Origin: Tubulanus polymorphus
Taxonomy: Eukaryota; Nemertea; Palaeonemertea; Tubulaniformes; Tubulanidae
Length of the DNA stretch: 64,000 nt
Direction: 5' to 3'
Assembly (NCBI RefSeq): GCF_964204645.1
Contig: NW_027437473.1
Coordinates: 1-64,000 of the forward strand
Below are positions 9,531 to 43,440 of this stretch, in pieces. The position numbers were made by a program, and so were the translations under genes. Position 1 is the first letter of the stretch, and each line of letters begins with the position of its first letter. The notes under the pieces are model-generated. The model was given only the letters and a program-made list of their open reading frames with translations. It did no database searches and was not told where the DNA came from.

Positions 9531-10988
9531 TTCAGGGTCATTGCTGAGACAAGACCCCAGAAGACTAGGCCACAGAGTACGTGTCTTCACCCCCAGCACA
9601 CAACAGAGTGGCCCGATTCAGGTGCGGCCTGTATGTTCTATTTCAGTGTGAAGAACAAGACCCCCTAGTCACAGAAGATTGAATCTGAAGTTGAATGATG
9701 ATGACAGAGTGACTGAAGAATTCCGGTGCGACCTGTATAACATGTCTCTATTTCAGTATCCCCCTCCCTAACCCCTAAACCCGAGCCCGAATAGGTAGGC
9801 CGAATATAGGTTAGGTTAGAATAGTTAGTTGATAAATCTGTGAATTAGAACATAATTTCAGCTGTTTATATAAAATACAGTTGTTATTTCAAGTGGAACT
9901 TTTTAACAATAAAAGTTGCATTTATTTACAATTGAACTGGATTGAAAATGTTTGACAGTTTGTGAGTTAAGTGTGATTTGATTAAGATGAAGCGTTGAAC
10001 TGTTGAACTCTACTTCTTATAAAATACAAATGACATTTACAACTGGTTTCAGGTTCAGACAGCACCCCACCCCACCCGGTCGGGTCCTATTCCTGAGGTA
10101 CCTGGGTTTCTGGTTTATTTGGTTGAATTAATTTACTGATTTTGGTCGCGCTGTTTTTGATGTCGATATTTCTCGCGTATATTTTTAGGAGACGCGGTTT
10201 TTTTAATTGATGATTCAAATCATTGAACGATTATTATATTTAAATCATTCACACCTTGTTATTTTGAGGTCTCCTCTCAAATTAATCTCGTAATAGCAGC
10301 GGTTGTTTTTGTACCATTGAACATCAGTGTTTTATTGCAAACATAGAAATCCATTACATAAAACAGAATTAGATTCAACAATTTATTACAATTATTCTAT
10401 ATGTAGATTATAAATGTTGGATGTGGCTACGAACTTTTTAAGTCATCATTTTGAAGTCATTTCGTGTTGTTTTATTTTCCTCACGCCGATTCTAGGTAGG
10501 TCTCTGTGTATTGTAATTTCGCGAGGTCAGTTCCTCCAATTTCACAACCTTCTCGTTGTCGATAAAATTAAATTTCAAAGTTTTAAAATTCACTGTTTGA
10601 ATTCGTTATAGTTGTGACAATAAACTCAACCAAACGACCATTTCAAATTACGTAGCTGAATTAGAAATAGGCCTGAAACAAACTAAGGCTCCGATGTAAA
10701 TGTAACGACTTATCAAAATGAAATTTAATTTCACTTCTTTCAGGTTTTGGTGTCTGTGAAGAGTTCACATGCTACTCATTGCTTCCTCTAAGATGGCGGA
10801 TGTTTATAGGTTATAGGATGGATATTCTCCTCCTCCACTAGGAGGCGCTGTAGGTAAGTCGCGGCACAACAATGTTGACAAAATAGAACAAATTCAGCTG
10901 GTAAATTTTGATAGCGTTGATAGAAGAGAAAGTTTTTAATTTATTTCTGGCGGTGGCAATTTAGATCAGGTCTGATTAGAAACTGTTG

Positions 10989-12150
10989 TAATCAGAGAAT
11001 AATAGCGGGTAGTCAGTGAAGAGTCACCACATCTGACTGGTCGCCAGTCACCACAACCTGACTGGTCACTGGTCACCACACCTGACTGGTCGCCAGTCAC
11101 CGAACCTGACTGGTCACTGGTCACCACACCTGACTGGTCACTGGTCACCGCACCTGACTGGTCACCAGTCACCGAACCTGACCGGTCACTGGTCACCACA
11201 CCTGACTGGTCACCAGTCACCGAACCTGACTGGTCACCAGTCACCGAACCTGACTGGTCACTGGTCACCACACCTGACTGGTCACCAGTCACCGAACCTG
11301 ACTGGTCACCAGTCACCGAACCTGACTGGTCACTGGTCACCGCACCTGACTGGTCGCCGGTCGCCACACCTGACTGGTCACCAGTCACCACACCTGACTG
11401 GTCACTGGTCACCACACCTGACTGGTCACCGGTCACCGAACCTGACTGGTCACCAGTCACCGAACCTGACTGGTCACCAGTCACCGAACCTGACTGGTCA
11501 CCAGTCACCGAACCTGACTGGTCATTAGTCACCACACCTGACTGGTCGCCGGTCGCCACACCTGACTGGTCGCCAGTCACCACACCTGCTGACTGGTCGT
11601 CGGTCACCACACCTGACTGGTCACCAGTCACCACACCTGACTGGTCGCCGGTCGCCACACCTGACTGGTCACTGGTCACCGCACCTGACTGGTCGCCTGT
11701 CACCGAACCTGACTGGTCACTGGTCACCACACCTGACTGGTCGCCGGTCGCCACACCTGACTGGTCGCCAGTCGCCACACCTGACTGGTCACCAGTCACC
11801 GAACCTGACTGGTCACCAGTCACCGAACCTGACTGGTCACCAGTCACCACACCTGACTGGTCTTCGGTCGCCACACCTGACTGGTCGCCAGTCACCACAC
11901 CTGCTGACTGGTCGTCGGTCACCACACCTGACTGGTCACCAGTCACCACACCTGACTGGTCGCCGGTCGCCACACCTGACTGGTCACTGGTCACCGCATT
12001 TGACTGGTCGCCTGTCACCGAACCTGACTGGTCAATGGTCACCACACCTGACTGGTCGCCGGTCGCCACACCTGACTGGTCGCCAGTCGCCACACCTGAC
12101 TGGTCACCAGTCACCGCACCTGACTGGTCACCGGTCACCACACTAACCAG
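10989..12150. repeat. 24-bp minisatellite with higher-order structure
   Basis: About 47 units of 24 bp on a CCTGACTGGTCACCAGTCAC theme, with occasional 27-bp units (CACCTGCTGACTGG). Two blocks that include a 27-bp unit recur 315 bp apart (landmarks at about 11583 and 11898). The period is a multiple of three, so a 391-residue minus-strand frame of VTGDQSG repeats stays open. I treat this as a consequence of the repeat. The paralogous array at 53417-53672 has only about ten units. Confidence 0.9.
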
Positions 12151-12177
12151 ACAAACTTACAAACTCGGTCAGTCACT

Positions 12178-12250
12178 ACTGATCTATGGTCCAGTGGTCA
12201 ACATGCTCGGCTGGTATCCTGAGGATCGGAGGTTCGAGTCCTGCTAGGGT
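12178..12250 (+). mobile_element. tRNA-derived SINE head in block A copy 1
   Basis: A-box-like GTCCAGTGGTCAACATG and B box GGTTCGAGTCC (12231-12241), followed by GCTAGGGTTAGG. It is the same family as 2180-2300 and is shared at the same place with 53705-53775, so the insertion predates the block duplication. Confidence 0.65.
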
Positions 12251-14782: not shown

Positions 14783-15597
14783 TTGCTGACGTGCAAAAGG
14801 TTAACAACCTTTTAAGGTAAATTTGCAATATATTTGACGATTTTCCTTCCTAACGAATACCTCGCATTTAGCGCCCCCTATAGGTCGAAAGTGAAAAATC
14901 ACATAGTGGCAGACAGGTGTTTCAGGGGGTGGGGGAGTCTCACCTTTCATTTAAGCCCAGGTGCCAAGCTCTACCCAAAAATGCCCAAAGATTGGTCTTG
15001 GATAGCTAGGTTGAGACCTTCTCTGTCCCGTACAGTGAATAAACATTGGTTAACAATAAAATAGACACGAAATACACAATTATATAAACAATTGACTACA
15101 GCGAGCAAGATAAAAATAGTGAAACGATTAAAATCAGTAAGAAGAGAACAAAAATTGAAAAGATACATGAAGTAATAATTAGTCCATATCTCACACTTGA
15201 CGATATCTTGTGTGGTCGAATGACGGTAAAATTATGGCCATCATTAACAACATGAAGCACCATCTTAGTGGCTATGCAGATTTTGATGAGATATTGAATC
15301 GTCTAGTTTGATTAATCCTGTCAAATCATAATTCCTTGATAACAATTATTATTTAGCATCTTAAAATTATTTAGGAGGAGCTAATCCTTTCATATGCTCA
15401 TGGCTTTAGTTACTCGGTATGGTTTATTGCTAATAGTATGTGCTGTGATCACATATTTTCTACATCGTCAATTTTTCTTTGCTTTCATTGATTTTTTTGT
15501 GTATACATATGCGTACTATGTTCATAATGAGCGAAATTTATTATGTAACGGTGAGTGCCGTCGAAGTATTACTATCACGCTTCAATTCCACTAGCAG

Positions 15598-18534
15598 ATG
15601 GCCAGTCATGCACATCCTGAGTTTATCGTAGGTTCAAGTAGTAAATATTATAAGGATTTAACGCAATTATCAAAGTTTGGATTATCAAACTTCTCCTTGT
15701 TTCATCTAAATATAAGGAGTTTTAATAAGAATTTTGAGAATTTGCAATTATATTTACACTCCCTCTGTTTCAATTTTGGGATCTTAGCTTTTACTGAAAC
15801 GTGGACTAAACTTCAACATGACAACAAGTCAATGTATAATTTGCCTGATTATGAGTCGATTTTCATAAGTAGACAGGATACGCGTGGTGGTGGAATAGCG
15901 ATGTTTGTCCACAACACCATTAAATTTAGGATACTGGATGATTTTACATGTGTAAATGACACATTCGAAAGTTTATTTATAGAAATCCAATTACCACATA
16001 ATATGTCAAAACATATTGTTGGCACTATCTATCGACCGCCTGATGCAAGTGTCAATAACTTTAATACTGATTTTCTACCACTCTTAGAAAACTTAACTAG
16101 AACAGGGCGTAAGTGCTTCATTTTGGGCGATTTCAATATAAATCTTTTCAACGCCGACTCTCATAAACCGACTGGAGATTTTATTTTTAATATGCTTTCA
16201 ACTGGTTTTACGAATTTAATAGATAAGTCAACACGAGTAACCGACAGATCTTCTACTCTTATTGACAATATATATTCAAACTGTTATTCTAGTTTCGATG
16301 CAATTTCAGGGATTCTGATCTATGATATATCTGACCACTTTCCAATTTTTGCAATTATGCCGGAAATCAAAGTCAACCATACATCAACTAGGACAGTTAG
16401 TTATCGAAAAATGTCAGATCATGATATCGCTCGATTTAAACGAAAGCTAATTGCACATGATTGGACTCATGTGTTTAATATCCATGATGCTAATGTTGCC
16501 TATAACTCTTTTTATGATGTATTCTATAAATACTACACGGAATGTTTCCCTATAATCAATAGAAAGTTTTCGATATATAGGGACAAGAAACACGGATGGT
16601 TTTCTAACGGTTTATTGATTTCTTTGAAAAAGAAGGATTCTCTTTATAGAAGATACCTGTCTAGTAAACTTCAAACTGATAGAGATATCTACAATAGATA
16701 TAGAAACGTTTTTAATACTTGTATCAAAAAGGCTAAAACGCTTCACTATAACTCTATGTTAAACAATGCGAGAGATCCCAAGGAAACCTGGAAAATAATT
16801 AATGACCTAATTAATAGAAAATCATCAAATTCTAAATATCCTGATGTTTTTGAACAGAATGGTGTTATGTACAAAAATAATGTTAGTATAGCCAATGAAT
16901 TTAATAAGTGTTTTGCACAAGCGGGTCCAAATCTAGCCAATGATATTTTACCTACTAACAAAACATTTTTTTCTTTTCTGGGTCCGCCACAACAAAATAA
17001 TATCTTTTTCTCTCCCACAGATTCTTTGGAAATTGAAAATATTGTTTCAAAATTTAAAAATAGTAATAACACTGGTCATGATGGTATCAATCAAAAGATC
17101 CTTAAGAGAGTAATTGACGCTATATCTCGGCCGTTAGCTCATATTTTAAATCTAAGTTTGATTAATGGACAAGTACCTGAATCCTTCAAAATATCTAAGA
17201 TATTACCTTTGTTCAAATCTGGAGATGTTTCACATTTTTCAAACTACAGACCAATATCAATACTCCCATGTATTTCTAAGATCTTAGAAAAAGTAGTTTA
17301 CAAAAGAGTTATAAGTTTTTTGGACAAGTATAAAATACTATCTCCATGTCAATTTGGATTTAGAAAAGACCATTCCACCAACATGGCTATTACTGTTATC
17401 ATAGATAAAATTATCAATAATTTAGACAATGGCAAATCAACTATAGGAATATTTTTAGACCTTTCGCGTGCATTTGATACAGTGAATCATGAAATTCTAT
17501 TGTCTAAACTTTGCCATTATGGCATCAGAGGTACGCCATTACTCTGGTTTAGAAACTATCTTTCAAACCGTTTTCAGACTGTTCTTTTTAAAGAGACTAC
17601 TAGCACTAGCTATCCTGTATTCTGTGGAGTGCCTCAAGGATCTATTTTGGGGCCGATCCTTTTCTTATTATATATAAATGACCTTGCAAACGCATCAAGC
17701 ATTTTTAATCTTATCATGTTTGCTGATGATGCTAATGTATTCACTTCTCATATCAATATTAATGAGTTAACTATAATAGTAAATACAGAACTACACAAAC
17801 TGAATATCTGGTTTCGGGCAAATAGGCTTTCATTGAATTTGAAAAAGACTCATTTCATGTTTTTCAGTCGTGCTAAACATAAACACTCAATTTCTATCAA
17901 AATCAACAATATGTCTATATCACAAGTCTCGACAACAAAATTTCTAGGCGTTCAAGTTGACGACCAGCTTACTTGGAAGTCACACATTAATAGCATCTGT
18001 ACTAAACTATCACGGTTCATTGGTATAATGGGTAGACTTTATGGAATTTTGTCAAAAACAACTTTACTGCAGTTGTATTATTCTTTCATTTATTGCCATC
18101 TCACCTATTGTAATATTGTATGGGGTAATACTTATCCTTCAAACTTAAGAAAGCTGGAACTTCTCCAGAAGAAAGCGGTCCGCATTATCTTTAAAACCGA
18201 TTTTAGAGCCCATACCTCACCATTATTTAAGTCTGCAAAAATTCTTAAATTGGCAGATATAAACAATTTTCAAATTGGACAATTCATGTATCTATATGTC
18301 AATAACAAGTTACCTGAGATGTTCAATAATTTTTTTAAGACGAATGACGTTGGATACAACACTAGAAACAGCAACAACATCCGCCCTGACTCATTCAAAT
18401 CAAATCTAAAAGGTTTCTCAATAAAAGTCAACGGTCCAAATATTTGGAATATTATGAATGATTCAATTAAAAACTCCCCTTCTAATGAAAGTTTCAAAAA
18501 TCGAACAAAAAACCATTTACTTTCTCATTATTAA
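15598..18534 (+). CDS. Endonuclease-reverse transcriptase of non-LTR retrotransposon
   Basis: A 978-residue open frame from ATG to TAA without breaks. Residues about 33-255 are an AP-endonuclease-like (EEP) domain: HLNIRS (N38), FTETW (E67), GTIYRPP (143-148), LGDFN (177-180, D178), LIDNI (D223) and ISDHFPI (D246, H247). Residues about 530-790 are the reverse transcriptase: FLDLSRAFDTVNH with D621, a GVPQGSILGP stretch, and FADD with D710/D711. The C-terminal part is the usual CR1/Jockey-like extension (LGVQVDDQLTWKSHI). All catalytic residues I can check are present, so it may be competent. The exact clade (CR1, L2, Daphne, Crack) needs a tree. Confidence 0.93.
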   Translation: MASHAHPEFIVGSSSKYYKDLTQLSKFGLSNFSLFHLNIRSFNKNFENLQLYLHSLCFNFGILAFTETWTKLQHDNKSMYNLPDYESIFISRQDTRGGGIAMFVHNTIKFRILDDFTCVNDTFESLFIEIQLPHNMSKHIVGTIYRPPDASVNNFNTDFLPLLENLTRTGRKCFILGDFNINLFNADSHKPTGDFIFNMLSTGFTNLIDKSTRVTDRSSTLIDNIYSNCYSSFDAISGILIYDISDHFPIFAIMPEIKVNHTSTRTVSYRKMSDHDIARFKRKLIAHDWTHVFNIHDANVAYNSFYDVFYKYYTECFPIINRKFSIYRDKKHGWFSNGLLISLKKKDSLYRRYLSSKLQTDRDIYNRYRNVFNTCIKKAKTLHYNSMLNNARDPKETWKIINDLINRKSSNSKYPDVFEQNGVMYKNNVSIANEFNKCFAQAGPNLANDILPTNKTFFSFLGPPQQNNIFFSPTDSLEIENIVSKFKNSNNTGHDGINQKILKRVIDAISRPLAHILNLSLINGQVPESFKISKILPLFKSGDVSHFSNYRPISILPCISKILEKVVYKRVISFLDKYKILSPCQFGFRKDHSTNMAITVIIDKIINNLDNGKSTIGIFLDLSRAFDTVNHEILLSKLCHYGIRGTPLLWFRNYLSNRFQTVLFKETTSTSYPVFCGVPQGSILGPILFLLYINDLANASSIFNLIMFADDANVFTSHININELTIIVNTELHKLNIWFRANRLSLNLKKTHFMFFSRAKHKHSISIKINNMSISQVSTTKFLGVQVDDQLTWKSHINSICTKLSRFIGIMGRLYGILSKTTLLQLYYSFIYCHLTYCNIVWGNTYPSNLRKLELLQKKAVRIIFKTDFRAHTSPLFKSAKILKLADINNFQIGQFMYLYVNNKLPEMFNNFFKTNDVGYNTRNSNNIRPDSFKSNLKGFSIKVNGPNIWNIMNDSIKNSPSNESFKNRTKNHLLSHY

Positions 18535-19100: not shown

Positions 19101-21796
19101 TCATTTATTGAGTTTTTTAAGTTCTGATATGATGTAATCTCTCGTATAGCGGTCGGTGCTCCTGCAGCGGATACACAGGTCAGAAAGATGCGGAAGATTA
19201 TTGATTAATTCGACGAATAAATCGATATCGTGCTGTGTATTAATCAGCGCGAGTGAACCGTGAAACTCTAAATAACGAATTGATGAGGCGTGTTTTAGTT
19301 GTTTAAAGATGCGATTGTTCTGTTCCGGTCTAACGAGACAGCTATCAATACGGACTTCTCGCAGCTGATTTACCGCATCTGACGATAGATACCGAACAAG
19401 TGCGTCAACATGAGCTTCTGACCACAACACTATTTCTAATACAGTCAGCCGCGGCAGGTGATCTAGAACGCGGTGTATTTGTAAATTAAATCCGTAAATG
19501 CCAAGACGTTTTAGTTTCGGCATTGAACCGACACTATCACTCATTGCTGCACATTCATCTGTCGTTAGTCCGCGCAGTCCGCGCAGTCCGAGCTGAATTG
19601 TTTCGATGTCTGACGATTTTAACGTGTTGTTTAAATCATTCAATTCCTCCGAACCGATCAAATCATTATCGAATATTACTCCACCAAGACATAAGGTTTT
19701 CAAACTCAGAATGATGTTTATCAGCCCTCTGGTTGTATTTCTATCGAGCTGATATTGACACCACGATCCGAGAGATAGATGTTTTATGGATGGATACGAT
19801 TTGTGAATATTGACTAAAATATAACCTAAACGTTCCGCACTAACACCAGTATTAATAAACAGACTCTCCACTGTATTGTGTGTGTTAGTATCAACACTGA
19901 TCAACCGCGCGTCATATTCAGTGTTAATCGAGTGACCTGTCTTAATCCATTCATTATTGAGTTTCTTGTAACATTCACCAGTGTCGTGGATTCCATCTCG
20001 CCGCACAAACCAGTTTAAACTGTAGCTTTTCTTACACATAGTCAAGTACTGATCGGGTTTTGATAACTCGTATGTGTATAATATCATACCGTGAAGACTA
20101 GTGTTACTCGCTATGGCTGTTTCTAATACGCGGTATTCGTCGGGTTTCAGTTCGTGAATACCCTGTATGTAAACTAGCTCGATCTGACATTGTTTGTGTT
20201 CAAGTATTTTTGCGAGCATGTTTATCCGCGATCTGCCATATACAGATACGAACAACATTTTCTGCATGTAGGGAACTATTTCACTAATGGCGTCGTCCGG
20301 CCAGTCGGCTTCATTCAGGCAGATTAACAACTGATCAGATAAAACAGTTCTTTCGGATCGGAGTTCGATGTAGCGTTCGTATTCGGGGATGAGCACCATC
20401 TCCCTAGTAACCGTAACCAAGGACTGGTACTCATCCGCTATTGTGACTGCTTTTAAATGTTCATCTATTAAAGTCTTGAAAAGTTCACCGAGGCCGCGGT
20501 TAAACTTGTAACGATACAGCAGCCCTGACATGAATCTCGGGTATAATTCACCATATTTCACAAGTTCGTCCGGTAGTTGTTCAAACGCGCATTTATTCCA
20601 GGGTATTTCACCACTGTTGTTGAATTGTACGACCGAGTGTACCGCCGCCAGAAATTCCTGCACAGATTTGTGTATGAACCGCAGCTGGACGGAGCGGTCT
20701 GATTTCCGTCGCGGCGACATCTCTTTGCACGTCAAAGCCGTCCTCTTCGATTCGTCGAGTTCAAGACGACTTTCGCTGAAGCTGTTTTGATGCTCGATGA
20801 GCGTCTCATACGCGACTTGACAAATTTGTTTAAGCGCTTTAGAATTTTCGATATTGCGGAAAAAACATTCCTTCGACAACTCGAGGCCCTCGCGTTTACT
20901 GATCAGAAAACATGTCAAATCGATGTAGATATCGGTGAGTTTTGATGGTATCATAATTTCTTCCTTGTCCATATACAGAAAACAAAACATAAGTAGTATC
21001 AGCGGGTTGTAGTAGATACTGTTAAATAAAGGTGGCGCTGCGTCTTTAAGCCTGTAGAATAGCTGATATGGATCGCGCTCGGGGAATTTTCTCTTCATAA
21101 TATCGATGACTTCTTCCTGTTTGAAGCCGGATATCGATACAACAGTGAATTTGGGATCAGTGACGATCATGCTGCCCCCGGACTCACGTGTTGTTATGAC
21201 GATATGCGCTTTCGGTAATTCATTGGTCACGTGTACGATGTCTATTTTCGCTTTATCGCTTTTTAACTCGTCGAAGCCGTCTAGAAAAAATATCGATTTT
21301 TCTGCATTTTCCCGTAAGAATCTCTCAAAACCAATCAGCAGATTCTCTTCGATTACTCGATTCAAAAGATTTTTGTAAATGTACTTATAAATACACGCGT
21401 TATCAGCGGGCAGTTCATTTAACGGTATATAGAATAACATTGCTTTGCTACAAAACTTTGCTACAAACTCCATTGTTGATGTTGTCCAGGTTAACACTTG
21501 ATTAACTACCTGAGTAGTTTTACCCATACCGGGTTCTCCTACGAGGCACACGGGTTTCACATCACTCTCTTTATAAGTGAAAAGTTTCTCGAAATGATCG
21601 GGTAAAATCAATGACTGCTCCTCACTTCCTTCATTTTTCTTCGGGTTTCGTTTTTGGGCTCGAATTTTCGCGTTTTCTTGGGTGAAGAAGTCGTTTAAAT
21701 TGGTGACTTCATCGCTCCACGAAACCTCTTTGTAATTTTCATCATCGATCATTCGTTGATACGTTTCTTTCAGGTTCTTCTGAACTTGATCAACAT
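19101..21796 (-). CDS. NLR gene 1, main exon (NACHT-LRR)
   Basis: One large exon encoding 897 residues plus a split codon. The acceptor TTTATTTTTACAG|AT leaves two bases, which joins in frame with the phase-1 donor of the small exon at 25386 (G|AT = Asp). The model predicts about 939 residues. In that numbering: Walker A GEPGMGKT (about 128-135), Walker B FFLDGFDE (about 211-218), an ITTRESGG sensor stretch, YYNPLIL in the helical/winged-helix part (about 304), and FIHKSVQEFLAA (about 415-426). The last 300 residues hold eight or so leucine-rich-like strands (for example SLKTLCLGG, KLKRLGIYG). A substitution turns the Arg codon used in genes 2 and 3 into TGA, shortening the C-terminus. The likely role is a cytosolic innate-immune or cell-death sensor (inference). 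Confidence 0.9.
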
Positions 21797-24700
21797 CTGT
21801 AAAAATAAAACCAGTTTGAGATTTTTTTAGAATTTCTATGGCGGCTGATTTTGCCTGAAAATCATAGAATCATAGAAAATGTCATGAGCTTAAATTGTAC
21901 AATTGACCGCAGTTACAAAATATGCCTAGGTACCAAGGAACTAATGAGTTATTCTGCTATTCAACGCCCCCTAGTGACCTTAAACAAAAACCAACGAACC
22001 TGAAACTCACCACAATCATACATCATGTCATGAGCTAAAACTTTGCAATTGATTGCGGTGACAAAATATGCGCCAGAAAGAATCTTTCTGTGGGGTCGGG
22101 TTAGCAACAAGTTCGATCAGAGACATTCAAGGTCCCATCTACACGAGTGGAAAAATCCTTTATTTTCAATCTACACGAGGAAAACATTTCCAAAAGTCAC
22201 CTTTAAAAAAGTCGGCTTTTTCACCTGTTTTAAAAATTATACTTAATCTAAAGATAAACGGCTTCGTTGTTTTTGGTGAACTTCACGTGTTACTAAAACG
22301 AGGGCGATATCATCACAGCTCCGCAGTAAATACTGCAAACTACGCCGCGCATCAACATGCAATTTTCAGCACAGGACAAGATGTTTATTAATCTTTCTCA
22401 TCTTTCTCAGAATTTCAGTTTGAGTCAATCGGATGACAACAATTCATTTCATTTAGTTCTTAACTTTTGAAATGAGGATTGGAAAACTGTATTAGTCACG
22501 TGATACACGATGAACCGGTTTTCTGAACACAAATCTTCGCTGCTTACGCGCATAAGAAGTGCCGGTTTTATGTCCTTGCGCATGTAAACCAAATATACTT
22601 TGTTAATTTAGATTTCATCAAGAAAATGTTTCTAGGCCTCGGATATACAATACAATAAGTAGCGGCACACTTCAATGAGTATGAATTACTTTTTTAGAAA
22701 GGCCGATCAGCCATATCGGCGTGCAAAAGTAAAGGGATATCCCGATATGACATCAGGCGGGAAAATAATTATTATTTTACAGAATTCCTTCGATTTCTTC
22801 TTTCAGAAATAAATTCATTCCTTCTTTCAATAAACCCAGGAAAGTGCAACAAATTTCCCTGAACTAATTACAAAGCTACGTATCTTGTGTCAAATAACAG
22901 AAAAAATGGGAAAATGAAGTCGAATCACTAAAACATCGCGGTCGGCGTTGCTACGCGACCCGACCACAAAAATGAAATCAGTTTGAGATATTTTAAGCCG
23001 GGTGTAAGTCGGTTGCGTCGCGATAAGTCTTTTTACAGTTGCCAGGCGCCATTTTTGGGTACCCACCGGGTCCGCATTGTTGAATTCTTGTCCCAATTTT
23101 TTCCCCAGTTTAATTTTCTTATTTCGTTCATATCTTTGGATTTGATTAAGATAGAAATAAGGTAAAAATATCGATGAACTCAGCTGATAATTAACTTTTC
23201 TATGATATCACTCATTCATAAATTTAAAGCAACAATGCGCGCTGGTGAAGTTATAAACATTCATATCCTCTTCCCGATAATTCAACTTGAATTTTTGCTC
23301 ATCTCATTCAAAAGTTCATAATTCTTACAAATCTTAATCTACATTTTCATTATTCAATTTTGAAGGCAGGGTCTGGACTACCGATCCCCAACCCCGAAGT
23401 CTGTCCTTGTTTTACTAGAACTGCCTATATATCTTTATTTGCCATTTTTTTCAAATGACTAAGTGCCCTTATTTCCATAGTTACTGAAAACTTTGATTTC
23501 AATAAAGCAGGGGCCGGTAAAATTGTGAAATTTCCTGATATAAAGAAACGATCGTACTTGCGATTGTCACGTGGTAACTAAAATTGGAACCAAACCACGC
23601 AAAGATAAAAAGTTTCGAATTCTGGCCTATTAGGGAAAATTGGGTTTCAACACAGCTATTTAGTAATAGTCATTGACTTAGAGCTAAAATAACTGGTCTT
23701 TATGGTCAAAGCAGCTTGAAAACAAATGAAAGAGATTAAATTCTCGATAAGAAATTCTACGAATCCTTCAAAAAAAATTATTTCAAAACGCATCTCACAA
23801 CTATTGTGGGTTCGAATCCCAGTATTACTGGATCAAATCGCGCATCTCCCAGTCACTAGAGCGCGTAGCCGTAGGTCTATTGCGACGATCGCGTCGCAGT
23901 AAGTAGAACATGTGCGACTTGCTGCGACTGGCGTCGTTAAAATTTCTATGCTCGCTGATTTGGTCTCCAAATTTCCGGTCGATTGAGAAAAATTAGCTAA
24001 AAGAAAATATTATTTCCAGCTTGTTCGAAAACAGCTTTTATTTGAGCGCTCACTGAAAAAAACTTATAGGTCCTGATATCAACGAGTTGATCTAAGCAAA
24101 TCAACTTTTAAATCAATTCATTGATCGCGTTTACAAAATATGCAGAGTTACCAATATAAATGGAAAATTGTATTCAACTCAATATTTAATTCTCCTGGTG
24201 GGTTGAACAAAAGACCGAAATTCCATGTCCTATGACAATGCTGATAACGACCAAATATCAAGACTAAGTTAAAATCACTAACCCACTATGTGAAAATGAC
24301 ATTTTCCCCAAAAACACCTCTTTTCATCTGTGTGCAAGAAATTACGTTAAAATTGAATGATGAAAAAAGCCTGTCTGATGTGTCAGGAAATCCCCTTTCC
24401 AAAAAATACCAATCACAAATTTCAATAGAAAATACCAAACAATTAGGAAGCTACAGGTCTCGGAATTTAGACCAAAAATAGGTACAAAAAGGTCTCAGGA
24501 CGGCCATCTTGAGTCCGATCGACCCAATTTTAACTTTTTCTTATGCTGATGTGCGCTGTGGAGATATATACTTATAAAAGATAAAGGATATTGATTAAAG
24601 TCATTCCAATTCCAATATTTGATGAATTTTCATTATAAGTAATTTGTTTATTATTAAGATTGAAATTACGTTATTTTCGTTTTTCAATTCTCAAGTTAAT

Positions 24701-25385
24701 AAAATCATTGTAACCTTTAGAAAGTATTAAATCATCATTTCTTTCTTTAAAAGGAGTTTCAAGAATATTCATTATTTTTTCATCTTAATTACCTTTATAA
24801 TCTAAAACTGTATTGAATATTTGAGGATTTCTGGAGCCATTATGGAAAGTATCTATTAGTTCAGTAATTAAATATGTTTCATTTAATAATATTTGATTAA
24901 TTACAGTAATATTATCAATTTTATTTTGTCTTCCATAAACTAAATATGTTGCTGAGATATAATTTTCAATGTTTAACAATCAAGGAATTCATGCCTGAAA
25001 TGTGGCTATAAAAACTGATCGTATGTTTACTAGATTTTGAGTAGGTGTCAGTCACAAGTTCTTCCAATAGCAATAAATATGTATGAACTGGCTGCCTGTC
25101 AGCCATCTTGATTGTGAACAGGGACAATCCGAAATAACTGGATTCCATCTACGGACGAACGGGAAAAAAGTGAAATCAACAGCCAACTGGGACTAAAGTC
25201 CCAACTGGGCTTACACAATCGTACGCCACCTGGTGGATAGAATGTCTTGATATAATTTTCTATCATTTTAGTTAAAGATTTAGAACGATCTTTAGAGACA
25301 TGGTCAAAGACTTCGGACCCGTCTTATGATTTAGGATCACATTTGGACTCAAGCACGAGTTCTGATGGTAGAAATCTATAATTAC
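21797..25385 (-). other. NLR gene 1 intron
   Basis: A 3.6-kb intron bounded by GTAATT and TTTTTACAG on the minus strand. It is closely matched by the introns at 34524-38106 and 59877-63447. It contains a tRNA B-box-like GGGTTCGAATCCCAG (about 23813) and conserved short open frames near its 5' end (24785-25148). No other gene is recognised. Confidence 0.75.
24785..25148 (-). other. Conserved intronic open frames, unknown (gene 1 copy)
   Basis: Two overlapping minus-strand frames of 60 and 64 residues. The first contains MADRQPVHTYLLLLEELV. The second is Asn/Ile/Leu-rich (INQILLNETYLITELIDTF) and stops early compared with its 102-residue equivalents in copies 2 and 3. A CACATTTCAG acceptor-like site lies between them. 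Neither frame fits the phase-1 donor of the RHIM exon without hitting a stop. This may be a fossil of another gene or an alternative exon; I do not recognise it. Confidence 0.3.
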
Positions 25386-25509
25386 CGAGATTCTCAGCAG
25401 GTCTGTCGATAGTTTGTGTATCTCCCTGGTAAACATTCATCGTATTATTGTCACCGATTTGAACCATTTTCGATTGATTTACATTTATTCCTGGATTACT
25501 CTGTGCCAT
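25386..25509 (-). CDS. NLR gene 1, N-terminal RHIM exon
   Basis: A small exon encoding 41 residues plus one base, from ATG 25507-25509 to donor G|GTAATT. Residues 16-24 read VQIGDNNTM, an exact match to the RHIM core consensus [IV]-Q-[IVL]-G-x-x-N-x-[MLI] of RIPK1/RIPK3/ZBP1/TRIF, followed by NVYQGDTQ. The phase (one base left over) fits the NACHT exon acceptor exactly. A TTTGTCAG acceptor ends at 25521, so the exon may run from 25520 (135 nt, divisible by three) and follow a 5' UTR exon. In known systems RHIMs form functional amyloids that recruit partners for cell death; that role here is inferred. Confidence 0.8.
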
Positions 25510-26021
25510 AGTACCACAAACTGACAAACAGGATTTAGAATTCAGTCATTTTATCTCAATAAGTGCAGCACATTTTTCCTGACCTAATTGTTTTGTCCAG
25601 TATTTACACAATCAGCCTCTACTCATATTCAGACTGAAGTTTTCTTTATTTCCGCTAAAAGTCGTTTTTCCGATAAACTGTTTATATGTTTTTATATTTA
25701 CCCTGGACTGATAAACAAACTGTGTCACCAGATCTGACTGTTTTTATTCCTACTCGAGACTGATAAACAAACTGTGTCACCAGATGTGATAAGAGACCAT
25801 AATTCAAAATACCGATTATATAACCAGACCCTGACAGTATTAGTCAAAGATTTAAAACAATCGAGTTGGTGGGTCCATTTTGGTCCTCAGAATTTTGCCA
25901 AAGACAATGTATTACTTTCGCCTCAAAACTTTATACCGGTTTTATATGCGAGATCACATTTAGACTCAAGTCACATCATTCTGTACTGAACTGAACTCTG
26001 ATGGTTAAAATCTATAATTAC

Positions 26022-26154
26022 CGAGATTCTCAGCAGGTCTGGTGCTGGCTTGTGTAACTGCGGGGATAATTTGAGTCACTGTCGTCGTATTATTGTCACC
26101 CCTTACACTTAAGTTAGAATTGTCTGCATTTATTCCTGGATTACTCTCCGCCAT
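26022..26154 (-). CDS. Alternative N-terminal exon B1 of NLR gene 1 (RHIM-like)
   Basis: Homologous to the RHIM exon (starts MAESNPGIN, ends RPAENL|G), with the same G|GTAATT donor and TTTTTCAG acceptor. It encodes 44 residues plus one base from ATG. The central segment is changed to SNLSVRGDNNTTTVTQII: the GDNN core is kept, but the hydrophobic-Q-hydrophobic lead is lost, so it is RHIM-like rather than RHIM. It lies 0.5 kb upstream of the RHIM exon and could be an alternative first coding exon. Confidence 0.55.
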
Positions 26155-26165
26155 AGTACCGTTTA

Positions 26166-31809: not shown

Positions 31810-34523
31810 CTATATCTGTATTTCTACTCTCAGTCTTTTATTGAGTTTTTTAAGTTCTGATTTGATGTAATCTCTCGTCGTATAGCGGTCGGTGCTCCAG
31901 CAGAGGATATACAGGTCAGAAAGATGCGGAAGATTATTGATTAATTCGACGATTAATTTGACGAATAAATCGATATCGTGCTGTGTATTAATCGGCGCGA
32001 TTGGTGAACGGTGAAACTCTAAATAACGAATTGATGAGACGTGTTTTAGTTGTTTAAAGATACGATTGTTCTGTACCGGTCTATCGGGATAGCTATAAAT
32101 ACGGACTTGTCGCAGCTGATTTACCGCATCTGACGATAGATACCGAACAAGTGCGTCAACATCAGCTTCTGACCGCAACACTATTCCTAATACAGTCAGC
32201 CGCGGCAGGTGATCTAGAACGCGGTGTTTTTGTAAATTAAATCCGTTAATGACAAGACGTTTTAGTTTCGGCATTGAACCGACACTATCACTCATTGCTG
32301 CACATTCATCTGTCGTTAGTCCGAGCCGTCCGAGCTGAATTGTTTCGATGTGTGAAGATTTTATCGTGTTGTTTAAATCATTCCATTCCTCCGAACCGAT
32401 CAAATTCTTATCGAATATTAATCCACTAAGACATAAGGTTTTCAAACTCGGAATGATGTTTATCAGCCCTCTGATTGTATTTCTATCGAGCTGATATTCC
32501 CACAGAGATCTGAGAGATAGATGTTTTATGGATGGATACGATTTGTGAATATTGACTAAAATATAACCTAAACGTTCCGCACTAACACGAGGATCAATAA
32601 ACAGACTCTCCACTGTATTGTGTGTGTTAGTATCAACACTGATCAACCGCGCGTCATCTTCAGTGTTAATCACGTGACTTGTAATAATCCATTCATTATT
32701 GAGTTTCTTGTAACATTCACCAGGGTCTAATCCACCTCGCTCCACAAACCAGTTTATACTGTTGCTCTTCTGACACATAGTCAAGAACTGATCGCGTATT
32801 GATGACCTGTATGTAACTAATATCATACCGTGAAGACTAGTGTTACTCGTTATGGCTGTTTCTAATACGCGGCATTCGTCGGGTTCCAGTTCCTTATAAC
32901 TGTGAATAATGTAAACTAGCTCGATCTGACATTGTTTGTGTTCGAGTATTTTTGCGAGCATGTTTATCCACGATCTGCTATATACAGATACGAACAACAT
33001 TTTCTGCATGTAGGGAACTATTTCACTAATGGCGTCGTCCGGCCAGTCGGCTTCATCCATGCAGATTGACAACTGTTCAGATAAAACAGTTCTTTCGGAT
33101 CGGAGTTCGAAGTAGCGTTCGTAATCGGGAATGAGCGCCATCTCCCTAGTAACCATATCCAAGGAATCGTACGTCATACTATCCGCTATTGTGACTGCTT
33201 TTAAATGTTCATCTATTAAAGTCTTGAAAAGTTCACCGAGGCCGCGGTTATACTTGTAACGATACAGCAGCCCTGACATGAATCTCGGGTATAATTCACC
33301 ATATTTCACAAGTTCGTCCTGTAGTTGTTCAAACGCGCATTTATTCCAGGGTATTTCACCGCTGTTGTTGAATTGCACGACCGAGTGTACCGCCGCCAGA
33401 AATTCGTGCACAGATTTGTGTATGAACCGTAGCTGGACGGAGCGGTCTGATCTCCGTCGCGGCGACACCTCTTTACACGTCAAAGCCGTCCTTTTCGATT
33501 CGTCGAGTTCAAGACGACTTTCGGTGAAGCTGTTTTGATGCTTGATGAGCGTCTCATACGCGACTTGACAAATTTCTTTAAGCGCTTCGGAATTTCCGAT
33601 ATTGCGGAAAAAACATTCCTTCGACAACTCGAGGCCCTCGCGTTTACTGATCAGAAAACATGTCAAATCGATGTAGATATCGGTGAGTTTTGATGGTATC
33701 ATAATTTCTTCCTTGTCCATATACAGAAAACAAAACATATGTAGTATCAGCGGGTTGTAGTAGATACTTTCAAATAAAGGTGACGCTGCGGCTTTAAGCT
33801 TGTCGAATAGCTGTTCTGGATTGGGGAATTTTCTCTTCATAATATCGATGACTTCTTTCTGTTTGAAGCCGGATATCGATACAACAGTGAATTTGGGATC
33901 AGTGACGATCATGCTGCCCCCGGACTCACGTGTTGTTACGACGATATGCGCTTTCGGTAATTTATTGGTCACGTGTACGATGTATTCCTTCGCTTTATCG
34001 CTTTTTAACTCGTCGAAGCCGTCTAGAAAAAATATCGATTTTTCTGCATTTTCCCGTAAGAATCTCTTAAAACCAATCGGCAAATGCTCTTCGATTTCTC
34101 GACTCAAAAGATCTTCGTAAATGTACTTATAAATACACGCGTTATCAGCGGGCAGTTCATTTAACGGTATATAGAATAACATAGGAAATCTTTTCAGAAA
34201 CGGTGATCGCTCCCATGACAACACTTGATTAACTACCTGAGTTGTTTTACCCATACCGGGTTCACCTACGAGGCACACGCGTTTCATAGCACGCTCGTCA
34301 TAAGTGAAAAGCTTCTCGAAATGATCGGGTAAAATCACTGGCTGCTCCTCACTTCCTTCATTTTTCTTCGGGTTTCGTTTTCGGGGTCGAATTTTCGCGT
34401 GTTCTCGGGTGAAGAAGTCGTTGAAATTGACGAATTCATCGCTCCACGAAACCTCTTTGTAATTTTCATCATCGATCATTCGTTTATACGTTTCTTTCAG
34501 GCTCTTCCGAACTTGATCAACAT
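31810..34523 (-). CDS. NLR gene 2, main exon (NACHT-LRR)
   Basis: An intact exon of 903 residues plus a split codon, with the same TTTTTACAG|AT acceptor as genes 1 and 3. Walker A GEPGMGKT, Walker B FFLDGFDE, TTRESGG, YYNPLIL and FIHKSVHEFLAA are all conserved. LRR-like strands follow, and the C-terminus ends LRVEIQI. The N-terminal part (FVNFNDFFTREHAKI; ERSPFLKRF) is the most different of the three, while the middle is closer to gene 3 than gene 1. Its original RHIM exon is missing at the expected place (see 38041-38107); candidate replacement exons lie at 38684-43382. The intact reading frame beside a broken first exon suggests use of another N-terminal exon (inference). Confidence 0.9.
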
Positions 34524-37500
34524 CTGTAAAAATAAAATCAGTTTGAGATTTTTTAGAATTTCTATGGCGGCTGATATTACCTGAAAATCATAGAATCATA
34601 GAAAATGTCATGAGCTTAAATTTTACAATTAACCGCAGTTACAAAATATGCCTAGGTACCAAGGAACTAATGAGTTATTCTGCTATTCAACGCCCCCTAG
34701 TGACCTTAAACAAAAACCAACGAACCTGAAACTCACCACAATCATACATCATGTCATGAGCTAAAACTTTGCAATTGATTGCGGTGACAAAATATGCACC
34801 AGAAAGAATCTTTCTGTGGGGTCGGGTTAGCAACAAGTTCGATCAGAGACATTCAAGGTCCCATCTACACGAGTGGAAAAATCCTTTATTTTCAATCTAC
34901 ACGAGGAAAACATTTCCAAAATCACCTTTAAAAAAGTCGGCTTTTTCACCTTTTTGAAAATAATACTTAATCTAAAGATAATTTAGCTGATTTTGGTGAG
35001 CTTCACGTGTTACTAAAACGAGGGCGCTATCATCACAGCTCCGCAGTAAATACTGCAAACTACGCCGCGCATCAACTTGCAATTTTCAGCACAGGACAAG
35101 ATGTTTATTAATCTTTCTCATCTTTCTGTGAATTTCAGTTTGAGTCAATCGGATGACAACAATTCATTTCATTTAGTTCTTAACTTTTGAAATGAGGATT
35201 GGAAAACTGTATTAGTCACGTGATACACGATGAACCGGTTTTCTGAACACAAATCTTCGCTGCTTACGCGCATAAGAAGTGCCGGTTTTAAGTCTTAGCG
35301 CAGGTAAACCAAATATACTTTGTTAATTTAGATTTCACCAAGCAAATGTTTCTAGGCCTGGGATATACAATACAATAAGTAGCGGCACACTTCAATGAGT
35401 ATGAATTACTTTTTAGAAAGGCCGATCAGCCATATCGGTGCGCAAAAGTAAAGGGATATCCCGATATGACATCAGGCGGGAAAATAATTATTATTTTACA
35501 GAATTCCTTCGATTTCTTCTTTCAGAAATAAATTCATTCCTTCTTTCAATAAACCCAGGAAAGTGCAACAAATTTCCCTGAACTAATTACAAAGCTACGT
35601 ATCTTGTGTCAAATAACAGAAAAAATGGGAAAATGAAGTCGAACCACTAAAACATCGTGGTCGGCGTTGCTACGCGACCCGACCACAAAAATGAAATCAG
35701 TTTGAGATATTTTATGCCGGGTGTAAGTCGGTTGCGACGCGATAAGTCTTTTTACAGTTGCCAGGCGCTATTTTTGGGTACCCACCGGGTCCGCATTGTT
35801 GAATTCTTGTCCCAATTTTTTCCCCAGTTTAATTTTTCTTATTTCGTTCATATCTCTGGATTGGATTAAGATAGAAATGAGGTAAAAATATCGATGAACT
35901 CAGCTGATAATTAACTTTTCTATGATATCACTCATTTATAAATTTAAAGCAACAATGCGCGCTGGTGAAGTTATAAACATTCATATCCTCTTCCCGATAA
36001 TTCAACTTGAATTTTAGCTCATCTCATTCAAAAGTTCGTAATTCTTACAAATCTTAATCTACATTTTCATTATTCAATTTTGAAGGCAGGGTCTGGACTA
36101 CCGATCCCCAACCCTGAAGTCTGTCCCTGTTTTACTAGAACTGCCTATATATCTTTATTTGCCATTTTTTTCAAATGACTAAGTGCCCTTATTTCCATAG
36201 TTACTGAAAACTTTGATTTCAATAAAGCAGGGACCGGTAAAATTGTGAAATTTCCTGATATAAAGATAGGATCGTACTTGCGATTGTCACGTGGTAACTA
36301 AAATCGGAACCAAACCACGCAAAGATAAAAAGTTTCGAATTTCTGGCCTATTAGGGAAAATTGGGTTTCAACACAGCTATTTAGTAATAGTCATTGACTT
36401 AGAGCTAAAATAACTGGTCTTTATGGTCAAAGCAGCTTGAAAACAAATGAAAGAGATTAAATTCTCGATAAGAAATTCTACGAATCCTTCAAAAAAAATT
36501 ATTTCAAAACGCATCTCACAACTATTGTGGGTTCGAATCCCAGTATTACTGGATCTAATCGCGCATCTCCCAGTCACTAGAGCGCGTAGCCGTAGGTCTA
36601 TTGCGACGATCGCGTCGCAGTAAGTAGAACATGTGCGACTTGCTGCGACTGGCGTCGTTAAAATTTCTATGGTCGCTGATTTGGTCTCCAAATTTCCCGT
36701 CGATTGAGAAAAATTAGCTAAAAGAAAATATTTGTTACAGCTTGTTCGAAAACAGCTTTTATTTGAGCGCTCACTGAAAAAAACTTATAGGTCCTGATAT
36801 CAACGAGTTGATCTAAGCAAATCAACTTTTAAATCAATTCATTGATCGCGTTTACAAAATATGCAGAGTTACCAATATAAATGGAAAATTGTATTCAATT
36901 CAATATTTAATTCTCCTGGTGGGTTGAACAAAAGACCGAAATTCCATGTCCTATGACATTGCTGATAACGACCAAATATCAAGACTAAGTTAAAATCACT
37001 CACCCACTAAGTGAAAATGACATTTTCCCCAAAAACACCTCTTTTCATCTGTGTGCAAGAAATTACGTTAAAATTGAATGATGAAAAAAACCTGTCTGAT
37101 GTGTCAGGAAATCCCCTTTCCAAAAAATACCAATCACAAATTCCAACAGAAAATACCAAACAATTAGGAAGCTACAGGTCTCGGAATTTAGACCAAAAAT
37201 AGGTACAAAAAGGTCTCAGGACGGCCATATTGAGTCCGATCGACCCAATTTTAACTTTTTCTTATGCTGATGTGTGCTGTGGAGATATATACTTATAAAA
37301 GATAAAGGATATTGATTAAAGTCATTCCAATTCCAATATTTGATGAATTTTCATTATAAGTAATCTGTTTATTATTAAGATTGAAATTATGTTATTTTCG
37401 TTTTTCAATTCTCAAGTTAATCAAATCATTGTAACCTTTAGAAAGTATTAAATCATCATTTCTTTCTTTAAAAGGAGTTTCAAGAATATTCATTATTTTT

Positions 37501-38106
37501 TCATCTAAATTACCTTTATAATCTAAAACTGTATTGAATATTTTAGGATTTCTGGAGCCATTATGGAAAGTATCTATTAGTTCAGTAATTAAATATGTTT
37601 CATTTAATAATATTTGATTAATTACAGTAATATTATCAATTTTATTTCGTCTTCCATAAACTAAATTTGTTGCTGAGATATAATTTTCAATGTTTAACAA
37701 TCGAGGAATTCATGCCTGAAATGTGGCTATAAAAACTGATCGTATGTTTACTAGATTTTGAGTAGGTGTCAGTCACAAGTTCTTCCAATAGCAATAAATA
37801 TGTATGAACTGGCTGCCTGTCAGCCATCTTGATTGTGAACAGGGACAATCCGAAATAACTGGATTCCATCTATGGACGAACGGGCAAAAAGTGAAATCAA
37901 CAGCCAACTGGGACTAAAGTCCCAACTGGGCTTAAACAATCGTACGCCACCTGGTGGATAGAATGTCTTGATATAATTTTCTATTATTTTAGTTAAAGAT
38001 TTAGAACGATCTTTAGAGACATGGTCAAAGACTTCGGACCCGTCTTATGATTTAGGATCACATTTGGACTCAAGCACGAGTTCTGATGGTAGAAATCTAT
38101 AATTAC
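34524..38106 (-). other. NLR gene 2 intron (up to the lost RHIM exon)
   Basis: Co-linear with the introns of genes 1 and 3, and carries the same intronic frames (37392-37700 and 37687-37869). The next usable donor lies at about 38683, so the working intron is at least about 4.2 kb. Confidence 0.7.
37392..37869 (-). other. Conserved intronic open frames, unknown (gene 2 copy)
   Basis: A 60-residue and an overlapping 102-residue frame, the latter full length here and in the gene 3 copy. The composition is Asn/Ile/Leu/Lys-rich and protein-like, ending GYNDLINLRIEKRK. There is no ATG at the start of the longer frame, and a stop lies just upstream of it. Not recognised. Confidence 0.3.
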
Positions 38107-38107
38107 C
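38041..38107 (-). pseudogene. Remnant of the gene 2 RHIM exon (donor side only)
   Basis: The intronic flank and the donor G|GTAATT match genes 1 and 3 up to 38107, the last exon base. The exon itself is replaced by an unrelated module starting AATTGATATTGTGCAAC, which recurs inside the array at about 39212 and 41755. The break thus falls at the exon-intron junction. Confidence 0.8.
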
Positions 38108-38683
38108 AATTGATATTGTGCAACTCGATACTAACGACTATAGCCGCGATCACGGGGAGACGATTTGACCCGGGCTGCAAAATTGGTACGGATCAGGTCC
38201 GAGTCAAATTGGCCTTAGAGATTGCATTCACACGCAAACCTCTCACTTGATACTAAACAAAACGAAGTGAGTCACTACCGGAACCAGTTGACCCGCACCT
38301 GGTCCGACGTTTTTGGTCAAATTGGGCCCAGGTCCATTTTGAATTATAGGGTTAGGATTGAAACGTGATAGTATCTGATCACGGTAACTTTCACTCTTAT
38401 TTTACTGTTAACAGTATTTATACTGTTAATCTGTTTTTATTCCTACTCGAGACTGATAAACAAACTGTGTCACCAGATGTGATAAGAGACCATAATTCAA
38501 AATACCGATTATAGAACCTGACCCTGACTGTTTTAGTCAAAGATTTAAAACAATCGGGTTGGTGGACAATATATTACTTTCGCCTCAAAACTTTACACCG
38601 GATTTATATACGAGATCACATTTAGACTCAAGTCACATCATTCTGTACTGAACTGAACTCCGATGGTTAAAATCTATAATTAC

Positions 38684-38779
38684 CGAGATTCTCAGCAGGT
38701 CTATCGACGGTTTGCTCCTCGTCATCGCGAACATTTTCTGCATTTATTCCTGGATTACTCTGTGCCAAAGCACCACAAA
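38684..38779 (-). other. Candidate N-terminal exon C2 (acidic type, no ATG)
   Basis: 96 nt from acceptor to donor, open in the conserved phase. The usual ATG is TTG (38766-38768). It encodes AQSNPGINAENVRDDEEQTV, then DRPAENL. The RHIM is replaced by an acidic segment. It would need an upstream start. Confidence 0.4.
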
Positions 38780-39815
38780 CTGAAAAACAGGATTTAGAAT
38801 TCAGTCATTTTATCTCAACAAGTGCAGCACATTTTTCCTGACCTAATTGTTTTGTCCAGTATTTACACAATCAGCCTCTACTCATATTCAGACTGAAGTT
38901 TTCTTTGTTTCCGCTACTGATAAAGGATAATGGAATGTAGGAAAAAAATGGCCGAGGAAAATTTATGAGAACTACTGACAATGTTAATAAAACATTAAGC
39001 CTTCAAATTAATGACATCATATATTTTTCATGGGGCTTAAAACAATTAAAATCGGTATTAATGAGATCAGAAATTTGATTAACTTACATTTCATTTCATT
39101 ACAGGATTGCTACATTGGAGAGTCATTGAATCCTATGTCTGAACTCAACTAACCCATGATGAGTTCACTCCTACATGTAGCAATCCTCCACCTAATATCA
39201 ATTATATCTGATATTGTGCAACTCGATACTAACGACTATAGCCGCGATCGCGGGGAGACGTTTTGACCCGGGCTGCAAAATTGGTACGGATCAGGTCCGA
39301 GTCAAATTGGCCTTAGAGATTGCATTCACACGCAAACCTCTCACTTAATACTAAACAAAGCGAAGTGAGTCACTACCGGAACCAGTTGACCCGCACCTGG
39401 TCCGACGTTTTTGGTCGGGCCAAATTGGGCCCAGGCCCATTTTGAATTATAGGGTTAGGATTGAAACGTGATAGTATCTGATCACGGTAACTTTCACTCT
39501 TATTTTACTGTTAACAGTATTTATACTGTTAATCTGTTTTTATTCCTACTCGAGACTGATAAACAAACTGTGTCACCAGATGTGATAAGAGACCATAATT
39601 CAAAATACCGATTATATAACCAGACCCTGACAGTATTAGTCAAAGATTTAAAACAATCGGGTTGGTGGGTCCATTTTGGTACTCAGAATCTTTAAAGACA
39701 ATATATTACTTTCGCCTCAAAACTTTACACCGGATTTATATGCGAGATCACATTTAGACTCAAGTCACATCATTCTGTACTGAACTGAACTCTGATGGTT
39801 AAAATCTATAATTAC

Positions 39816-39942
39816 CGAGATTCTCAGCAGGTCTGTCGCTGGCTTGAGTAACTGCGTGGATAATTTGATTCACTGTATTATTGTCACCGATTATACTTAA
39901 ATTAGAATTGTCTGCATTTATTCCTGGATTACTCGCCGCCAT
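39816..39942 (-). CDS. Candidate N-terminal exon D2 (RHIM-like)
   Basis: ATG to donor encodes 42 residues plus one base (the acceptor-to-donor span 39816-39953 is 138 nt). It starts MAASNPGIN; the centre reads SNLSIIGDNNTVNQIIHAV. IIGDNNTV keeps the G-x-x-N-x-hydrophobic part of a RHIM but lacks the Q. It is the closest RHIM relative left to gene 2. Confidence 0.5.
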
Positions 39943-40287
39943 AGTAACGTTTACTGAAAAACAGAATTTAGAATTCAGTCATTATATCTCAACAAGTGCA
40001 GCACAGTTTTCCTGAAAGAAATATGCTGGTTGGCCAAATTGTAAATTAGTACATATCACATGCAGAAGACCAGATAACAATGATAAAAGCTTACTATAAT
40101 ACAAGTGTAGCAACCCAATCTCAATAATTACAATAATGAAATGTATGAATTTGTGAGCAGTATTCGCCTGTTAATAATAAGACATAAACTACATGAAACA
40201 CATTCTAGCCACAAATATTACCAGTCTCGCTAGCCATATACTCATTCTGTACTGAACTGAACTTTGATGGTTAAAATCTATAATTAC

Positions 40288-40372
40288 CGAGATTCTCAGC
40301 AGGTCTATCGACGGTTTGCTCCTCGTCATCGCGAACATTTTCTGCATTTATTCCTGGATTACTCTGTGCCAT
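40288..40372 (-). CDS. Candidate N-terminal exon E2 (acidic type)
   Basis: ATG to donor encodes 28 residues plus one base: MAQSNPGINA, then ENVRDDEEQTVDRPAENL. No amyloid motif. Acceptor and donor as in the other modules (96 nt between them). Confidence 0.45.
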
Positions 40373-41227: not shown

Positions 41228-41323
41228 CGAGATTCTCAGCAGGTCTATCGACGGTTTGCTCCTCGTCATCGCGAACATTTTCTGCATTCATTCCTGGATT
41301 ACTCTGTACCAAAGCACCACAAA
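41228..41323 (-). other. Candidate N-terminal exon F2 (acidic type, TTG at start position)
   Basis: 96 nt, open, phase 1-1. TTG replaces ATG at 41310-41312. Ile8 of the family is Met here (NPGMNAENV), offering a possible internal start. Confidence 0.35.
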
Positions 41324-43371: not shown

Positions 43372-43440
43372 AGTAACGTTTACTGAAAAACAACATTTAG
43401 AATTCTTCAGTCATTTCATCTCAATTTAAGTGCAGCACAT

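Follow-up and report, generated by a model that had tools for sequence, protein, structure and literature searches.

We analysed a 64,000-nucleotide stretch of the genome of Tubulanus polymorphus (Nemertea; Palaeonemertea), positions 1 to 64,000 of NW_027437473.1, hereafter called the window, in which exons for NACHT-LRR receptors are accompanied by small upstream exons, one of them encoding the RHIM-like core VQIGDNNTM. The best protein matches to the window are LOC-numbered NCBI models of the same species, and one of these, P0001 (LOC141914658 isoform X2), is 100% identical. The NACHT-LRR exon of LOC141914658 (19101-21796, minus strand) encodes a NACHT domain, helical domains and C-terminal LRRs, with the stop codon at its low end; its acceptor is TTTTTACAG, its first base is 21796, and from the junction onwards the reading frame is unbroken for 898 residues. 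Upstream of it lies the 135-nucleotide exon with the VQIGDNNTM core (25520-25386, minus strand), which is preceded by the acceptor TTTGTCAG, encodes ...SKMVQIGDNNTMNVYQGD... and ends at its 3' side in TCG followed by the donor GTAATTAT. It reads V-C-G-T-MAQSNPGINVNQSKMVQIGDNNTMNVYQGDTQTIDRPAENL plus one leftover base, the two other bases of that codon coming from the NACHT exon. Since it possesses an acceptor of its own that keeps the same phase, the exon can be internal, i.e. a symmetric phase 1-1 cassette. Its splice sites, its Pfam RHIM match and the P0001 junction all identify it, and joining the exons at the assigned sites recovered P0001 whole, as a suffix of the predicted product.

The earlier note on this DNA had given the VQIGDNNTM sequence, its coordinates, frame and splice phases as we find them, and the in-phase junction from 25386 to 21796, which it proposed without annotation, is the one used by the predicted NCBI model P0001. 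It had placed the exon at 25386-25509; the 25386 end stands, but 25509 is an ATG inside the exon, whose acceptor-defined start is 25520. Nor does this exon stand alone as a first exon: it belongs to a family of tandem symmetric cassettes.

The receptor body was examined by profile and structure comparison. The NACHT domain of exon 19101-21796 scored 48.3 bits in Pfam (cut-off 26.7), and both Walker A (GEPGMGKTT) and Walker B (FLDGFDE) are present in P0001, whereas the Pfam LRR and HD2 matches of the NACHT exons stayed below their cut-offs. A sequence search with P0001 found no chain among solved structures. An AlphaFold model of P0001, built from a 26-row alignment, had a mean predicted local distance difference test score of 73 and a predicted template modelling score of 0.63, with a C-terminus of alternating strand/helix units. 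Its best Foldseek match in the PDB was NLRC4 (4kxf; E 1.2e-23, template modelling score 0.47, root-mean-square deviation 10.9, 14% identity), and NLRP3, NOD2 and other NLRs followed at 12-17% identity among the 50 matches listed. Pfam scans of the three NACHT exons of the window and of six proteins gave no CARD, PYD or Death domain. As modelled, the receptor body is that of an animal NLR with a NACHT-helical-LRR fold, and the receptor identity suggested by the earlier note is thus borne out by the Pfam NACHT match, the AlphaFold model and the NLRC4 match.

RHIM cores follow the consensus [IV]Q[IVL]GxxNx[MLI]. This is matched by VQIGDNNTM at 25386-25520 and by two identical cassettes on contig C6; VQMG variants, with Met at position 3, outside the usual I/V/L, occur in four further copies. 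Against the Pfam RHIM profile (PF12721, curated cut-off 20), the VQIGDNNTM exon (42 residues) scored 22.1 bits (E 1e-4), so that the RHIM-like motif pointed out in the note is also found by profile search; scored as 46 residues, the cassette gave 21.9 bits. Two of 11 cassette types scored singly passed the cut-off (22.1 and 22.3 bits), and the VQMGDNNTM type reached 13.5. Among 22 real cassette types, four matched RHIM at any score (E up to 10, one alignment), compared with zero among 30 shuffled versions of the window exon, the alphabetically first of 140 made. The codon pattern [IVM]Q[IVM]GxxNxM was then counted over the genome (268 Mb in 77 contigs, here labelled C1, C2 and so on), where it occurred 14 times, vs. 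four times for the reversed pattern. Seven of the 14 are NLR cassettes (three VQIG, four VQMG) and, because the cassettes were duplicated from one another, represent a single origin; the other seven, vs. four reversed, are no meaningful excess. A weak match of the cassette alignment to EAD10 (15.1 bits) stays below the cut-off of 24.1, and the available passages of PMC8195603 make no mention of RHIM.

The window holds nine cassettes, all on the minus strand; each is bounded by an AG acceptor and a GTAATTAT donor, and their lengths are all multiples of 3. Across 17 cassettes, in the window and elsewhere in the genome, all lengths keep the same frame. A strict or near-strict core is present in two of the nine (VQIGDNNTM and VQMGGNNTM) and a related one in two more (SIIGDNNTV and SVRGDNNTT), and the remaining five have none. 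The SVRGDNNTT cassette (26022-26165, 144 nucleotides, RHIM-like but lacking the Q) has the acceptor TTTTTCAG and a final G before the donor GTAATTAT; it is in phase with cassette 25520-25386 and can splice in ahead of it, and no NCBI model was seen using it. A second NACHT-LRR exon (31810-34523, Pfam NACHT 59.9 bits) is used in the model P0006, together with a cassette lacking a core (NVRDDEEQTVDR type, 38684-38779), the SIIGDNNTV cassette (39816-39953) and two more core-less cassettes (40288-40383 and 41228-41323), the last of which contains the start Met of P0006. Two further core-less cassettes (42326-42421 and 43287-43382) were assigned by splice sites and phase. The third NACHT-LRR exon (57007-59876, Pfam NACHT 56.5 bits) forms the 3' part of P0002, which uses whole the cassette with the RHIM-like core VQMGGNNTM (63448-63582). 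When the four cassettes and the second NACHT exon were joined, P0006 was recovered whole, again as a suffix, and cassette 63582-63448 joined to the third NACHT exon gave the last 1000 of the 1061 residues of P0002. It should be noted that the 5' cassette acceptors were assigned after P0002 was known; agreement with the models is therefore no independent test of those acceptors. A window match at 30382 (TQTSQRPAEIL) was rejected as a tenth cassette, as it contains a stop and lacks a donor.

In the NCBI annotation, the second and third NACHT exons with their cassettes (31810-43382 and 57007-63582) are isoforms X3 and X2 of LOC141914657, so that one set of 5' cassettes may serve alternative NACHT exons. 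Elsewhere in the window, a 979-residue open frame on the plus strand (15595-18534) resembles, by eye, an endonuclease and reverse transcriptase of the long interspersed element type, and at 10966-12247 both strands have long, repetitive open frames, again by eye a tandem repeat.

Across the genome, 39 NACHT matches were detected, and 18 of them are free of internal stops over 650 residues or more. At 12 of these 18 intact loci the same strand carries a cassette no more than about 6 kb upstream. Complete cassettes also occur in the paralogue models P0002, P0003 (both VQMGGNNTM) and P0010 (VQIGDKCTM); at the level of the motif, cassettes are thus N-terminal of NACHT both in the genome and in these three proteins. 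Other members differ: P0012 (C6:18368621, last 5' exon located) and P0007 have immunoglobulin (Ig)-like, transmembrane N-termini instead of a cassette, P0009 has another N-terminus, and three intact loci have no cassette within the 3 kb examined. We infer that P0007 and P0009 correspond to the loci at C6:22306322 and on C19. P0007 and P0012 (C6:18368621-18371269 for the latter) combine same-family NACHT-LRR exons with an apparent signal peptide, an Ig-like region and a transmembrane helix, i.e. the layout of a membrane-spanning NLR; the signal peptide and helix were recognised by eye, and the Ig match of P0007 (16.1 bits) is below its cut-off. In P0013 and at C9:3605724-3606119 the cassette exon has grown into tandem 21-residue repeats, most of them with VQIGD or a variant. 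Two regions of C6, at ~17.60 and 18.09 Mb (~0.49 Mb apart), carry identical cassettes and near-identical NACHT matches, either as a recent segmental duplication or as an assembly duplicate. A 2024 survey places NLR absences in Nemertea, according to the passages available (PMC11508797); in the Tubulanus genome, long stop-free frames were found at 18 NACHT loci that belong to one family.

To follow the core within this family, a protein tree was built from 13 Tubulanus proteins and two very distant outgroup rows; six of its 12 inner branches are open. P0001-P0006 group in a single supported clade, of which P0001-P0003 bear VQ[IM]G cores. This clade lies inside a supported group of nine; P0008, P0010, P0011 and P0013, which do not belong to that group, have AQIG or V[QR]IGDKCTM as the core of the NACHT-adjacent cassette (VRIG in P0011, whose cassette was taken from genomic DNA). 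Because QIG-type cores occur both in P0001-P0003 and in these outlying branches, the QIG-type core probably represents the ancestral state, from which the SIIG, SVRG and core-less forms would be derived. In 136 pairs of 17 cassettes (including C8:103504, which was anchored 6 nucleotides out of register), mean identity was 0.807 in the N-flank, 0.771 in the core, 0.935 in the C-flank, 0.834 in the downstream intron and 0.895 in the 60 nucleotides of upstream intron, a figure that conserved splice signals may have raised. The core evolves faster than its surroundings. The pooled ratio of non-synonymous to synonymous change (pN/pS) over the nine core codons was 0.66 in five RHIM-class cassettes, 1.69 in six others and 1.91 in all eleven, values that serve as an indication only, since the pairs are non-independent and synonymous sites are few.

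Possible partners carrying the motif were sought among cassette matches and strict-pattern matches genome-wide. With the cassettes of the P0003 N-terminus as the query, six proteins were found, all NACHT proteins of Tubulanus polymorphus, in a search limited to proteins 0.55 to 1.75 times the query length. Cassette matches without a nearby NACHT match were followed in part. Those on C8 at 2.39, 3.59 and 3.81 Mb were rejected as effectors, being NACHT fragments by eye, and the stretch examined around C1 at 19.74 Mb held no recognisable partner. The latter region (C1:19744858-19749144) contains three identical cassettes in 2.08-kb tandem units on a contig without a NACHT match. A weak match on C7 at 3.98 Mb (E 0.13) has neighbouring frames that are apparently unrelated and was discarded; another, on C9 (C9:4828010, 4.83 Mb; E 2.2), lies beside a set of genes that we label Polinton/Maverick-like. 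Of the seven strict-pattern matches outside cassettes, three have an in-frame stop. The four open ones were rejected as RHIM proteins and look like chance occurrences: C7:18256895 sits just after a splice donor, C9:12528695 is in a 31-residue frame without flanking splice sites, and C2:9151061 and C9:10676960 are in frames of 34 and 20 residues.

Together, these data are best read as an NLR family specific to this lineage, whose RHIM-like N-termini are encoded by separate exons and are diversifying, in a layout like that of the amyloid NLRs of fungi and bacteria. We are highly confident of this architecture; the exons, phases, family, motif match and diversification are read from the sequence, and the NLR fold from the structural model. 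Phase-1 splicing would join a conserved NACHT-LRR exon to at least one small symmetric cassette, and the cassettes would supply an Asn-rich, probably disordered N-terminal tail with a RHIM-like core, ancestrally about V-Q-I-G-D-x-x-T-M and with the full RHIM VQIGDNNTM in LOC141914658. From here on, oligomerisation, amyloid formation, templating and outcome are steps that we infer. The LRR end would sense a ligand or a disturbance of the cell, and the NACHT ring would oligomerise as in NLRC4 and gather the tails, whose cores could then nucleate a cross-beta (RHIM-type) amyloid. A downstream protein, or other NLRs of the family, would be templated by this amyloid through an identical or compatible motif of their own, and the outcome would be cell death or signalling of the NF-kB type. 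The receiver might be another NLR, through homotypic co-assembly, or a protein with a variant core. Tandem cassettes would provide several rungs per receptor, and swapping, loss and mutation of cores among cassettes would set which receptors co-assemble. We consider the chances that these NLRs signal through amyloid to be about evenly balanced, and the same holds for phase-1 cassette NLRs with RHIM-type amyloid templating, which is the best explanation as a whole. A stronger version, in which the diversifying cassette array encodes specificity and decides the co-polymerisation partners, with VQIG..N.M, SIIGDNNT, tandem 21-residue VQIGD repeats and blanks as its modules, is rather doubtful.

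Several results weigh against amyloid templating. Many cassette cores are altered (SIIG, SVRG, RKSG, SVSG) or lost by deletion. Placed in a 147-residue context, the VQIGDNNTM motif scored 18.7 bits, below the Pfam RHIM cut-off of 20. Eight of the 11 cassette types scored singly had no RHIM match. At E <= 0.1, RHIM was reported neither for VQMGGNNTM as a single exon nor for full-length P0002, P0003, P0010 and P0013. A profile of seven QIG-type cassettes, searched against the PDB with an E limit of 10, did not retrieve any RHIM chain, and a single cassette used as the query likewise found none among solved structures. No separate effector emerged from 45 cassette matches and 14 strict-pattern matches genome-wide, a search that variant motifs would escape. 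Finally, the protein of P0001 begins MNVYQGD, its first residue being the closing Met of the RHIM core, and this model therefore lacks the motif. It is possible that the likeness to RHIM is a coincidence, in which case the cassettes would encode a fast-evolving, Asn-rich flexible tail and the NLR would signal otherwise, e.g. by ring assembly alone; we regard this as a serious possibility, if not a probable one. The strict core is missing from most cassettes, any core is missing from five of the nine in the window, the core is less conserved than the upstream intron, no RHIM partner was found among the matches searched, and the match amounts to one evolutionary event. Chance likeness accounts less readily for two cassette types above the curated RHIM cut-off with none of the shuffles matching, for the QIG-type core retained on deep branches and for the mild constraint on the core suggested by the RHIM-class pN/pS, with its few sites and non-independent pairs.

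The start of P0001 also bears on whether LOC141914658 is a decaying gene or leaves its cassette unused, with transcripts that begin within the exon and a protein without the motif. Two in-frame ATGs lie upstream of this start in the same exon, and no AG occurs between the second of them and the start used, so that the P0001 transcript seems to begin inside the exon; the start may be that of a truncated model or a true one. The related C8 loci, where only apparent NACHT relics are seen by eye, fit decay as well. Yet the 898-residue frame and the splice sites of LOC141914658 are intact, the paralogue models P0002, P0003 and P0010 include whole cassettes, and P0001 is the one member seen of a cluster of four. 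On balance, a decayed gene or unused cassette is improbable. We also consider it very unlikely that the cassette is a decoy or regulatory RHIM, which would enter RIPK-type kinase amyloids and block or redirect them, with core-less cassettes as silent versions. Core-bearing and core-less cassettes do share one array, and RHIM-bearing RIPK1 homologues are reported in several spiralians, in the passages available of PMC12119088, which makes RHIM signalling itself plausible in the clade. The strict codon pattern, however, revealed no RIPK1-type RHIM in the genome, although it would miss a split or variant one.

In the titles, abstract starts and passages of the open-licence literature that were covered, no description of a RHIM-bearing animal NLR was found. 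N-terminal amyloid motifs are described in the fungal NLRs PNT1 and NWD2 and in bacterial BASS NLRs; the PP and BASS3 motifs are RHIM-related, and PP prions are partly cross-seeded by human RHIMs. NLRs form NACHT-mediated rings, and fungal NLRs template their effectors through N-terminal amyloid motifs (passages in PMC7885112, PMC7889193, PMC12881547, PMC12261475 for these points). According to one passage of a review, the architectures of amyloid motifs in mammals differ from those in fungi and prokaryotes (PMC7889193). With the fungal PNT1/HELLP and NWD2/HET-S systems, the Tubulanus genes share a STAND receptor that has a short amyloid-type motif at its N-terminus; in PNT1 this motif, PP, is RHIM-related (passages in PMC7885112, PMC7889193). 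In the fungi the gene for the matching effector is adjacent and amyloid has been shown, whereas in Tubulanus no effector was found by the searches described, and the motif is carried by cassette exons in tandem, on a NACHT-LRR receptor of the animal type. BASS3 NLR signalosomes of bacteria likewise have a RHIM-related motif on an NLR (passages in PMC7889193, PMC12261475), but are encoded by two-gene clusters (passage in PMC7889193), whereas the Tubulanus gene is an intron-bearing animal gene with a predicted NLRC4-like fold.

The animal NLRs, including NLRC4, NLRP3, NOD2 and the invertebrate expansions, share NACHT, helical domains and LRR with the Tubulanus proteins and give the best structural matches. 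The Tubulanus proteins differ in an N-terminus that consists of RHIM-like cassettes or, in the relatives P0007 and P0012, of Ig-like plus transmembrane segments, the Pfam scans described above having shown no CARD, PYD or Death domain. RIPK1, RIPK3, ZBP1, TRIF and the Drosophila RHIM-like motifs share the core V-Q-I-G-x-x-N-x-M and the PF12721 match above the cut-off; to our knowledge, none of these proteins is an NLR. The type of core that triggers necroptosis in mammals would thus be placed on swappable small exons of nemertean NLRs, and the related, diversified cores are a natural set for studies of seeding specificity. By analogy, the amyloid-tipped receptor design of fungi and bacteria may be used by an animal. 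Animal RHIM amyloids are known from kinases and adaptors, whereas the NLRs with known amyloid motifs are fungal and bacterial. A RHIM-type tail on an animal NLR would connect the two, and it would become testable whether amyloid signalling by NLRs is ancestral or was re-invented.

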